From: Rhodospirillales bacterium
Lineage (GTDB): Bacteria > Vulcanimicrobiota > Vulcanimicrobiia > Vulcanimicrobiales > Vulcanimicrobiaceae
Assembly (NCBI GenBank): GCA_903970385.1
Contig: CAJCIN010000072.1
Location: 1 to 40,712, forward strand
Direction: 5' to 3'
DNA length: 40,712 bases
Shown: positions 2,586-6,090 of the stretch, piece after piece
Position numbering within the stretch: the first letter of the stretch is position 1
How the letters are laid out: every line of letters begins with the position of its first letter
Program-made: the position numbers and the translations under genes
The notes under the pieces: generated by a model
The model's database searches: none
What the model saw: the letters and a program-made list of their open reading frames with translations, nothing else
Told to the model about the DNA's origin: nothing

Positions 2586-3728
2586 ATGTTCGCTCGTTTG
2601 CACGGTCTGCCTCGGGTCGTCGGCCCGTTCGCGCTGATCGAAGCGCTGGTATTCGCTTGTGCCGAGGCGTCAATCATGCTCAATCCGCACGTCGCGCTCG
2701 CATCGCGTTACCCGACCGAGGTCGAGATCGCGGCCTTCTGTGCTCTCCGTTTCGCGCTGCCTTACGCGAGCCGGCAGAAGCCGCGAATATGGGCGTTCAT
2801 CGCGATCGAAGTCGCGCTGCTCTTCTTCATTTCGGCACAGGTCAACGGTGCCGCGATTACGATCATCAGCGTGAGCGTGGCGCTGCGAAGCGCCGAACTG
2901 TTGCGGCCGCCGGTCGCGTATTACACGATCGGCGTCTTGCTCGCCGTGGTGCTCGTGTCGATGTCGTTCTGGGGGCGCGCGCAGGGCATCGCTTGGAACA
3001 CGATCGGCGATTGGGCGGTCATCACGAGCCTGGCATGGGGATTGACGGGGGCGCTGACGAGTTTCGCGGCCGGCGAGCGGCTGGCCAATGCGGAGTTGCG
3101 CAAATATGCGGCGATCTCGGCGGAGGTGGCCGCCGGTAAAGAGCGAGGCCGCATCGCGCTCGAGCTCCGCGATATGATCGGTCACGCGCTCACCGCGCTC
3201 AACGTCCAATTGGAGAGTGCGCTGCGGTTGCGCGACGTCGACGCGGCCGCCGCCGACACGCTCATCGTATCGTCTAAAGCGCTCGGATCGCAGGCGCTCG
3301 AAGACGTTCGACGCACCGTCGCTCGATTGCGCACCGACCCCCTCGAGCGCGGTCCGCTCGATGAAGTCATGCGACGTCTCTGCGAGCGGTTCGAGAGTAC
3401 GTTCGGTATCGAGATCGACCGAACGCTCGTGCCCGTCGCCGGAGGACCGGCGACGAATACCGCCGTGATCCGGATCCTCGAGGAGGCGTTCACGAACGTC
3501 GCCCGTCACGCGGGCGGATCGAAAATCGATCTTCATCTCACGCGGCTCGCGGAGCGTAACGTGCTGGAAATGCGCGATGACGGCTGCGGCTTCGATACGC
3601 GCGATCACGTCGCCGGACACGGGCTCGCGATCATGCGCGAGCGGGCGAGCGCGGCCGAAATCGACTTGGCCATTCGCTCCGCTCCCGGATCCGGCACGCT
3701 CGTACGCTTGGCGTGGGATTCCGCATGA
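2586..3728 (+). CDS. Membrane histidine kinase, NarX/DesK type, phospho-acceptor His replaced by Arg
   Basis: The protein has 380 residues. Roughly residues 10-165 form five or six membrane segments with no evident periplasmic domain. A HisKA_3-type dimerisation helix begins near residue 182 (KERGRIALELRDMIGHALT). The HATPase domain follows, with an N box (ILEEAFTNVARHAG, about 298-311), G1 (DDGCGFD) and G2 (GHGLAIMRERA). In this family the phosphorylated residue is the His of ELHD; here codon 195 (3168-3170) is CGC, giving ELRD. The ATP-binding half looks intact. The LuxR-type regulator follows with an ATGA overlap, so the two are translationally coupled and should act as a pair. The kinase may use another residue, act as a phosphatase or pseudokinase, or be decaying. 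The family is sure, the activity uncertain. Confidence 0.9.
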   Translation: MFARLHGLPRVVGPFALIEALVFACAEASIMLNPHVALASRYPTEVEIAAFCALRFALPYASRQKPRIWAFIAIEVALLFFISAQVNGAAITIISVSVALRSAELLRPPVAYYTIGVLLAVVLVSMSFWGRAQGIAWNTIGDWAVITSLAWGLTGALTSFAAGERLANAELRKYAAISAEVAAGKERGRIALELRDMIGHALTALNVQLESALRLRDVDAAAADTLIVSSKALGSQALEDVRRTVARLRTDPLERGPLDEVMRRLCERFESTFGIEIDRTLVPVAGGPATNTAVIRILEEAFTNVARHAGGSKIDLHLTRLAERNVLEMRDDGCGFDTRDHVAGHGLAIMRERASAAEIDLAIRSAPGSGTLVRLAWDSA

Positions 3729-4387
3729 ACACGCGCCTCGTCATCGCGGACGATCAAAACGCCTATCGCGTCGGCCTGCGCGCGCTGCTTTCCACGTTGC
3801 GCGGAATCGAGATCGTCGGCGAAGCGGCCGACGGATGCGAAGCGATCTCGATCTGTTCGCGGATGCGACCGGACGTGGCGCTGATGGATATCCGGATGCC
3901 CGTCATGGACGGGATAGCCGCCACGCGGGAACTCTCGAAAACGCTGCCGGCGACGAAAATCCTCGTGCTCACGACCTTCGACGACGACGAATTGGTCCGC
4001 GCCGCGGTCGCGGCGGGAGCGGCCGGTTACGTACTCAAGGACACGCCGGCCGACGATCTCGCGGCGATCATCGCGATCACGCGACGCGGGTATTCGACCT
4101 TCGGGCCCGGGCTCGTCTGCGATGTCGACGACCGCGCGCCGTCACCGCAACCGGCCCGAGACCACCTCGGCGCGATGACCGAGCGCGAACGAGACGTCCT
4201 GCGCGAGCTCGCGATCGGCGCGTCGAACAAACGGATCGCGACGACGCTCGGCATCTCCGACGGGACGGTTCGGAATTACATGACGAGCATACTCTCGCAG
4301 CTCGGTCTGTCGTCGCGAACGGAAGCCGCGCTCGCCGCACGTTCGATCTTCGAGCGGCACTCGGCAACGCCCGAGTCGGAGTCGTGA
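3725..4387 (+). CDS. NarL/FixJ-family response regulator
   Basis: This is a two-domain DNA-binding regulator of 220 residues. The receiver domain carries the acidic pair (IADDQNAY), the phospho-acceptor Asp in ALMDIRMPVMDG (about residue 55) and the conserved Lys in YVLKDTPADDL. The C-terminal LuxR helix-turn-helix begins at MTERERDVLRELAIGASNK and continues to the recognition helix around GISDGTVRNYMTSIL. I chose the ATG at 3725, which overlaps the kinase stop as ATGA, over an in-frame start four codons upstream, because the family begins at this point and the overlap is the classic coupling arrangement. It is the expected partner of the kinase at 2586. Targets are unknown; its own cluster is the likely first candidate. 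Confidence 0.94.
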   Translation: MNTRLVIADDQNAYRVGLRALLSTLRGIEIVGEAADGCEAISICSRMRPDVALMDIRMPVMDGIAATRELSKTLPATKILVLTTFDDDELVRAAVAAGAAGYVLKDTPADDLAAIIAITRRGYSTFGPGLVCDVDDRAPSPQPARDHLGAMTERERDVLRELAIGASNKRIATTLGISDGTVRNYMTSILSQLGLSSRTEAALAARSIFERHSATPESES

Positions 4388-4391
4388 CGGC

Positions 4392-6090
4392 ATGATCTCG
4401 GGCGCATTCCGGTTCCTTCGAAACGCGATCCGGCCCGGCGTCGAGGTCACGAAAGTTCCGGCGAATATCCTGCTCGATTGGGATGTTCCCGTCGTCGTGC
4501 GCGATGGAACGACGCTTCGTGTGAACGTGTTCCGGCCGAACGTCGACGCGCCGGTCCCCGTGATCATGTCGGCGCATCCGTACGGAAAGGATAAGATCCC
4601 CGCGAAATCGCGCAGCGGACGTGCGCCGGCAATCCAGTCGCGGCTCCTCCCGCAGCCGCACCGCGTGCGCATCTCCGCATGGACCAGCTGGGAAGCTCCC
4701 GATCCTGCCTTCTGGGCGACGCACGGTTACGCCGTCGTGAACGCCGACCTCCGCGGCGGCGGCACGTCGGAAGGGATAGCGGATCTTTTTTCCGATCAGG
4801 AGGCGCGCGATTACTACGACCTCATCGAGTGGGCAGGCTCGCGAGAATGGGCGTCGGGACGCGTCGGCCTGGACGGTGTCTCGTATCTCGCGATCAGTCA
4901 ATACAAAGTCGCCGCGCTGCGGCCGCCGCATTTCGCGGCGATCTGTCCGTGGGAAGGTCTGAGCGATCTCTATCGCGATTTCGCGCGCCCCGGCGGCGTA
5001 CGCGAGGACGGCTTCAGCATTCTTTGGAGCGCGCTGACGAGCCGCGAGGCGCGCCTGCGTTCGTCGATCCGAAAGCAGGTCGTCGAACGATCGGAGCGCG
5101 ACGACTGGTACCGTTCGGTGACGCCGGACGTCGCGCGGATCGACGTCCCGATGCTCGTGTGCGGTAGTTTTTCGGATCACTGTCTGCACTCGCGCGGTTC
5201 GTTCGAAGTATTTCGCCGCGCCGGTTCCGCGCGCAAATGGCTGTACACGCATCGCGACGGAAAGTGGTGCGCGTATTACGGGCCGGACGCGACCGCGGCG
5301 CGCAAACGCTTCTTCGATCACACGCTCAAGGGTATCGAGAACGGACAGGCGACCGAACCGGCCGTCCGGCTTGCGATCTACGACGGCGGTCCGGATCCGA
5401 CCGCGGTCACACGCGAATCGGCGTGGCCTCCGAGCGACCTCGTCGAGCGGACGCTCCGTCTCGACGCGCGCACCGGGTCGCTGCTCGCCGGATCAGTACC
5501 GGAAACGCACGCCTCGGTCGCGTTCGGCACGAGGCGAGCGAAAGCGGCGTTCGCGTGGACGCTGCCGGAGGACATGGACGTCATCGGTCCGATGGCGCTG
5601 CAGCTGTTCGTCGAACTGCGCGGCGCCGAAGATGCGTTTCTCTTCGCAAACGTTCGCAAGATGCGCGCGGGCCGCGAAACGACGTTCGAAGGTTCGTACG
5701 GATTCTCCGGCGACTCGGTATCGAAGGGTTGGCAACGCCTGGCACATCGCGAGCTCGATCCCGCGTTGTCGACACCGCTGCAGCCGGTCCACATGCACGA
5801 ACGCCGTCGAACCGCTGCGCGCCGGTGAGATCGCGCTCGTGCACGTCGCTCTGCTCCCCCAGGCGACACGGTTCCATCGAGGTGATGTGCTTCTCGTCGA
5901 GATTCGGGGAACGTGGCCCGTGCCGCGGGACCCGTTTCGCGGCCAATTTCCCGCCGGCTACGAGCGTAGTCCCGATGCCGTCTGCACCCTCCACACGGGC
6001 GGATCGTTCGATGCCTACCTGCTCGTCGGTACGCGAGAGATCTGGAGCGGATCGTCGCCGGGTTCGCAACCGATGGAGAACGGCGGATGA
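4392..6090 (+). pseudogene. CocE/NonD-family (X-Pro acyl-peptidase-like) hydrolase, frameshifted near the 3' end
   Basis: This is an alpha/beta-hydrolase of the CocE/NonD type, which cleaves esters or Xaa-Pro peptide bonds. The family's opening (VVVRDGTTLRVNVFRPN, about residues 37-53), the region PDPAFWATHGYAVVNADLRGGGTSEG, the nucleophile elbow GVSYLAISQ and the motif LYTHRDGKW are visible. The first frame stops at 5828 (478 residues), just where the C-terminal jelly-roll domain should continue. That continuation is present one frame on: VEPLRAGEIALVHVALLPQ and HRGDVLLVEIRG, to the TGA at 6090. An extra C at 5804-5805 explains it; without it a protein of about 565 residues results, the usual family length. 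Either a real recent inactivation or a sequencing error is possible. It starts 4 bases after the regulator, and its shifted frame overlaps the next gene as ATGA. Confidence 0.85.

Follow-up and report, generated by a model that had tools for sequence, protein, structure and literature searches.

A HisKA_3-type sensor with arginine at the phospho-acceptor site: a candidate pseudo-histidine kinase beside its response regulator

Sensors that keep the HisKA_3 fold without its phospho-accepting histidine are a kind already counted. In the excerpt of PMC12632262 on which we draw, 56 of 16,025 HisKA_3 domains (0.3%) lack the histidine, against 0.9% for HisKA domains, and the conserved histidine is described as not essential for the phosphatase activity of HisKA_3 sensors. 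The same excerpt reasons that, were phosphatase activity the general role of histidine-less sensors, HisKA_3 domains should lack the histidine more often than HisKA domains do, and the opposite is seen. A narrow look at the literature met no characterised HisKA_3 sensor without the histidine.

For DesK, the part of PMC5231405 cited here treats the role of the DxxxQ/H motif in phosphatase activity and assigns two residues to that reaction, Gln193 placing the water molecule and Asp189 contacting the regulator. His188 lies buried in the phosphatase state, where it bonds with its counterpart in the dimer; the phosphatase activity of DesKC carrying H188V was normal both in vitro and in vivo, and the phosphomimetic DesK H188E served to capture the opposite, phosphotransferase state. 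DivL lacks kinase activity yet continues to bind its regulator (PMC4211667, in the part cited), and BumS of Campylobacter jejuni, with no discernible autokinase activity, controls its regulator by dephosphorylation only, the phosphate coming from another donor (PMC11796366, likewise in part).

The sensor, its partner regulator, and their neighbors

The window, by which we mean the whole stretch of 40,712 nucleotides analysed here, encodes a HisKA_3-type sensor with arginine where the phospho-accepting histidine is expected, followed by a response regulator. The features needed for the argument are as follows.

2586..3728, + strand: HisKA_3-type sensor histidine kinase with Arg195, 380 amino acids (translation; Pfam HisKA_3 and HATPase_c over cut-off)
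2622..3080, + strand: N-terminal part of the sensor, residues 13 to about 165, with predicted helices, probably membrane-spanning, the input region (AlphaFold2)
3141..3341, + strand: HisKA_3 domain (dimerisation and phosphotransfer helices), residues 186-252 (Pfam)
3168..3170, + strand: codon 195, CGC (Arg), replacing the phospho-accepting histidine (codon reading; alignments)
3171..3185, + strand: Asp196-Met-Ile-Gly-His200, an intact DxxxQ/H phosphatase motif (homologue alignment)
3459..3716, + strand: HATPase_c domain, residues 292-377, with N box EEAFTNVARH, DDGCGF, and G boxes (Pfam; alignment)
3725..3728, + strand: ATGA overlap of kinase stop and regulator start (sequence reading)
3725..4387, + strand: NarL/LuxR-type response regulator, the kinase's partner, with phospho-acceptor Asp55 intact (Pfam Response_reg and GerE; alignment)
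4392..5828, + strand: Peptidase_S15/PepX_C hydrolase, frame-broken near its 3' end (Pfam; frame comparison)

The sensor frame translates without an internal stop. It scores 45.2 bits for HisKA_3 (cut-off 24), which places it in that family, and 39.3 bits for HATPase_c (cut-off 26.4), with the N and G boxes present. A Pfam search gave no family for the N-terminal part, in which AlphaFold2 predicts, at low to middling confidence, helices at residues 13-32, 45-63, 66-85, 90-104, and 109-132 and the start of another at 137-215; judging by their hydrophobicity, these helices probably cross the membrane. For the kinase, 7 NCBIfam models were listed and all score below their cut-offs, as do the best 25 of 94 models for the regulator; neither protein can therefore take the name of a studied system.

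The AlphaFold2 monomer (mean pLDDT 78, pTM 0.49) supports a putative DesK-like core, best in the ATP domain, whose predicted fold matches VraS (4gt8) with a Z score of 20.0 and an rmsd of 1.7. In most full-core alignments with DesK the rmsd is 11 to 14, and a different placement of the two domains presumably accounts for this. Phosphatase-state and phosphotransfer-state chains of DesK score alike against the monomer, from which the state of the dimer is not readable.

The regulator's ATG at 3725 lies inside the ATGA overlap. The protein combines a receiver with a LuxR-type DNA-binding domain (Pfam Response_reg and GerE) and retains Asp9/Asp10, Asp55, Thr83, and Lys105, which we take to be the receiver's active-site residues; it is 60% identical to the regulator adjoining the one close orthologue of the sensor, found in genome G007. 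The claim of a preliminary description that the ATP-binding boxes and the partner regulator are intact, and the pair ATGA-coupled, is upheld by the Pfam matches, by the invariant key residues described below, and by this start codon. The hydrolase starts 4 bases past the regulator's stop and possibly shares its transcript. Around 5790-5830, the frame of this gene (4392-6090, +) is broken, with PepX_C profile positions 1-149 matched in one frame and 122-179 in another, either through local sequence errors or misassembly or because the gene is a pseudogene in a decaying operon. Whether it reflects sequence errors or operon decay, the break lowers the weight that Arg195 can be given.

On the other side of the sensor, an open reading frame of 277 amino acids with no Pfam match (1748-2581, +) ends 4 bases before the kinase; it may be cotranscribed with the kinase and might have to do with the signal that is sensed. 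A tRNA-Leu gene (anticodon GAG; 1536-1622, +) lies upstream of the operon and is followed by a terminator-like hairpin (1630-1659), of a kind no commoner here than in shuffled sequence. Promoter and terminator scans around the operon gave nothing above chance.

Arginine at residue 195

Codons 193-196 (3162-3173) read GAG CTC CGC GAT, or Glu-Leu-Arg-Asp. In a phmmer alignment with DesK that is gap-free near the site, Arg195 falls under the histidine of 'ARDLHDTLGQ', and structural alignments with DesK, which run at an offset of 7 in this region, put it on DesK residue 188. Translation and both kinds of alignment thus confirm the earlier reading of an arginine codon in a well-aligned HisKA_3 helix. 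With arginine in the first helix, the protein lacks the phospho-accepting histidine expected of HisKA_3 sensor kinases and, as far as its sequence tells, would be filed as a member of the HisKA_3 fold family and not as a working histidine kinase. It falls under the definition of pseudo-histidine kinases as proteins with kinase-like domains that lack a residue needed for kinase activity (after the excerpted part of PMC12632262). Conservation of the replacing residue among relatives, as seen for Tyr550 of DivL, is not strictly demanded of such a kinase. Given the base call, the label of pseudokinase proposed earlier is a fair one for a protein with Arg195 and its other boxes intact.

We hold the arginine to be very probably genuine. 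The competing explanation is a wrong base at position 3169, arising as an assembly or consensus error or as a minor strain variant. CGC is one base from a histidine codon, and the assembly, in 312 contigs and 91% complete, also contains the frame-broken hydrolase downstream. However, substitution errors in contigs are usually rarer than the printed 0.3% of histidine-less domains, which would make a wrong base unlikely.

Relatives of the sensor and scans for arginine versions

Among 149 genomes of the phylum, one close relative was found, an orthologue in G007, which represents another genus of the same family. It is 50% identical to the sensor over residues 12-379 (E 6e-106, with the next best match in the phylum at E 2e-27), and it carries histidine at the position of Arg195. 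At E <= 1e-24, a search of 388 genomes, of which the listing places 239 outside the phylum, gave no closer relative than this one; from beyond the phylum, the best match is a pair in G339, both with histidine, and 361 plasmid records held only distant relatives, all below 60% identity. These searches extended to E <= 1e-22 in the phylum and to E <= 1e-24 in the 388 genomes, with at most 5 candidates scored in the genomes listed. The G007 pair (locus L034, G007:C101:6000-16010) lies a few kilobases after clpP- and clpX-like genes, names that we take from their sequences, a setting unlike the window's; the G007 contig ends about 200 bases past the regulator.

The window's own genome (3.26 Mb, 312 contigs) has a single HisKA_3 match at E <= 0.001, which is ORF 2586-3728 itself, in an assembly that is 91% complete and from which another could be missing. 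This bears on the idea of a mixed dimer, in which the arginine protein would pair with another sensor that supplies the histidine. Its intact ATP-binding domain could phosphorylate a partner chain, but with no other HisKA_3 match in the assembly such a pairing seems highly improbable.

At column 195, histidine is present in 26 of the 27 rows counted from the protein searches, the 27th being the window with its arginine. The full alignment table, which takes in only distinct sequences from pieces that include the column and have E no higher than 1e-5, has 51 histidines and 1 arginine (the window) in 52 rows; because 25 of the 52 come from loci fetched with a histidine pattern, they are barred as evidence, and the 27 protein-search rows are the fair set. 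Two histidine-bearing protein-search rows lie outside that set, L005 (whose piece with the site has E 5e-5) and L016 (which covers the gene already counted as L108), and adding them would give histidine in 28 of 29. In a first alignment, 25 of the 32 aligned pieces reach the site, 24 with histidine and 1, the window, with arginine. The phylum protein search listed 37 matches, 7 of which are outside the rows read.

Two patterns were written for the arginine version. The strict one, back-translated from [E/D/Q/H]-[L/I/M/F]-[R/S]-D-x-x-G-H-x-[L/F]-T-x-[L/F]-N with the sixth residue restricted to codons with a middle T, finds the window once and had no match in genome_contigs (84,980 species) or viral_contigs, a scan that would pass over near variants and may not cover the genome from which the window comes. 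A peptide search of genome_contigs matched 32 stretches, with no relative among them. A looser pattern in degenerate DNA, [R/S]-[I/L/M]-A-x-[E/D/Q/H]-[L/I/M/F]-[R/S]-D-xxx-[H/Q]-x-[L/F], which admits serine as well, gave 5 matches in 5 of the 388 genomes, the window among them. Read in frame and judged by eye, none of the other four looks like a kinase: one is in what we take to be an M24-peptidase-like protein, one in a 66-residue open frame, and two in long frames that are not kinase-like. The histidine version of the pattern gave 95 listed matches in 55 of the 388 genomes, and loci were retrieved for 30 of these matches. The candidate of a conserved arginine clade, for instance putative cyanobacterial kinases with 'LRD' at the site, was rejected on the strict scan's zero matches in genome_contigs and viral_contigs.

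The preliminary description had proposed aligning close homologues to look for a clade with arginine, and had named a set of homologues that all carry histidine, with this strain as the lone exception, as the outcome that would tell against it. No second sequence with arginine was found among those read, the only close orthologue has histidine, and within this thin sampling, in which the nearest homologue is only 50% identical, the window is that lone exception. Such isolation favors a lone loss of function, namely, a recent inactivating arginine in the lineage or strain, with the two-component operon disused or on its way out. We regard such a loss as possible but rather unlikely, and the broken frame of the hydrolase 4 bases downstream of the regulator also fits it.

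A further point in favor of a lone loss is the window's record at conserved columns. At the 16 columns with at least 95% agreement among the other rows, the window departs at 2 (Arg195 and Ile359) and the G007 relative at 1, the departure at Ile359 being common to both; at the 22 columns with 85% agreement, the departures are 3 and 1, against a mean of 0.98, and at the 31 columns with 75% agreement, they are 6 and 3, against a mean of 3.12. The window ranks fourth of 50 rows at each threshold, ties included. This small excess, one part of which is Arg195 itself, would lean slightly toward relaxed constraint. In residues 186-372, changes unique to the window and to the relative number 15/18, 11/14, 9/18, 14/17, 19/20, and 12/22 against six outgroups, and by these counts the core evolves no faster in the window than in the relative. 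Against a lone loss stand this lack of faster change, a kinase frame with no stop or frameshift, and a normal ATP site and regulator, a weak objection because a very recent change leaves no trace. Departures and rates fit either a sensor that the cell still uses or an exchange so recent that no clear mark of it has formed.

The rest of the catalytic core is well kept. The 30 sequences given to one alignment (the window and 29 relatives) all share Arg187, Asp196, Glu300, Asn304, Asp331, Gly333, and Gly335. In the larger table, all 52 rows carry Asp196; at column 200, 40 rows have glutamine and 12, the window included, have histidine, so that the DxxxQ/H motif of a BumS-type sensor phosphatase is present as Asp196 and His200. 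The role of this motif in phosphatase activity is said to have been set out by Huynh in 2010. The preliminary description had offered the histidine of IGHALT, which is His200, as a substitute acceptor through which the protein might still be a kinase. His200 is the sole histidine of the HisKA_3 domain, and the ATP site is intact; however, among the 26 relatives counted, column 200 is histidine in 8, each with the normal histidine as well, and glutamine in 18. The position is thus the usual H/Q of the phosphatase motif and no replacement, and a kinase working through another residue is scarcely probable.

A possible role for the arginine sensor, and comparison with described systems

Our preferred reading, a tentative one to which we would give slightly less than an even chance with its phosphatase and binding-only forms taken jointly, is a pseudo-histidine kinase that still acts on its regulator. 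The exchange of histidine for arginine would have ended self-phosphorylation, with the input part, dimer helices, ATP-binding domain, and regulator-docking helix kept. Given the base call, the loss of kinase activity is strongly indicated by the chemistry, since without the histidine phosphate cannot be taken up from ATP in the known way; retention of phosphatase activity or regulator binding is a moderate expectation. Most likely, the Arg195 sensor would still bind the partner regulator. In one signal state, Asp196 and His200 would dephosphorylate it, making the sensor a brake, and the regulator would obtain its phosphate from another donor, such as acetyl phosphate or a HisKA kinase encoded at another locus of the genome. 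These sources we put forward weakly. The genome encodes acetate kinase, and on contig C95 (loci L044 and L063) another NarL-type regulator adjoins a HisKA kinase, which from its sequence is a possible source of cross-phosphorylation.

Because Asp196 and His200 are present and DesK H188V has normal phosphatase activity (PMC5231405, in the part cited), a signal-controlled brake would by analogy be the likeliest use of the sensor. The earlier suggestion of a phosphatase-only sensor is a possible reading: it gains from the intact Asp196-xxx-His200 and from the dispensability of the histidine (PMC12632262, excerpt), and it loses from the burial of His188 in the phosphatase state of DesK (PMC5231405, same part), where valine would suit the site and two arginines would repel each other, so that a buried arginine pair would be disfavored. 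It may be that Arg195 holds the helices in the exposed, phosphatase-off state and that binding alone remains, by analogy with DivL. A specific version, which we find very doubtful and count within the chance given to the preferred reading, is that paired Arg195 residues at the dimer axis turn the helices outward, as phospho-histidine or DesK H188E would. If this is true, the sensor is neither kinase nor phosphatase, and the regulator is held or released by the signal with no phosphate passing through the sensor.

Several observations count against the preferred reading of a pseudo-histidine kinase that acts on its regulator. As no second arginine sequence was found, selection for Arg195 is unsupported; the window departs from conserved columns more often than its relative does; and the frame-broken next gene fits a decaying operon or poor local assembly. 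The lower share of histidine-less domains in HisKA_3 (0.3%) than in HisKA (0.9%) counts against phosphatase activity as a general rule (PMC12632262, excerpt).

Histidine-less HisKA_3 sensors are rare, and the window's case, one sequence from one assembly, is meanwhile of little wider importance; the residues that replace the histidine in the other such domains are not given in the excerpted part of PMC12632262. A natural arginine variant with the rest intact would nonetheless test a phosphatase role against a pure-binder role for histidine-less sensors, and it is informative because the DesK mutants point in opposite directions depending on whether the replacement is neutral or charged.

DesK of Bacillus subtilis has the same catalytic domains as the window's sensor and provides the best PDB sequence matches and the best full-core fold matches, with Arg195 equivalent to His188, Asp196 to Asp189, and His200 to Gln193. 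Unlike the window's sensor, it has its own histidine; the two proteins are about 24% identical, and arginine is not among the DesK mutants in the cited part of PMC5231405. The G007 orthologue (locus L002) resembles the window's sensor in half of its residues and in the same kind of adjoining regulator; unlike the window's sensor, it has histidine at the site, and matches to the window's upstream and downstream neighbors are absent from its locus.

DivL of Caulobacter has a HisKA domain, not a HisKA_3 domain. Like the window's sensor, it keeps its kinase boxes and has another residue, Tyr550, at the histidine site; unlike the window's, its replacement is conserved in homologues, it has no phosphatase activity, and its regulator is DivK (PMC4211667, in the part cited). 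BumS, with its regulator controlled through dephosphorylation, would resemble the brake proposed here, but it is a cytoplasmic protein whose inputs, branched short-chain fatty acids, are known and whose activity has been tested (PMC11796366, in the part cited), whereas the window's sensor is membrane-bound by prediction.
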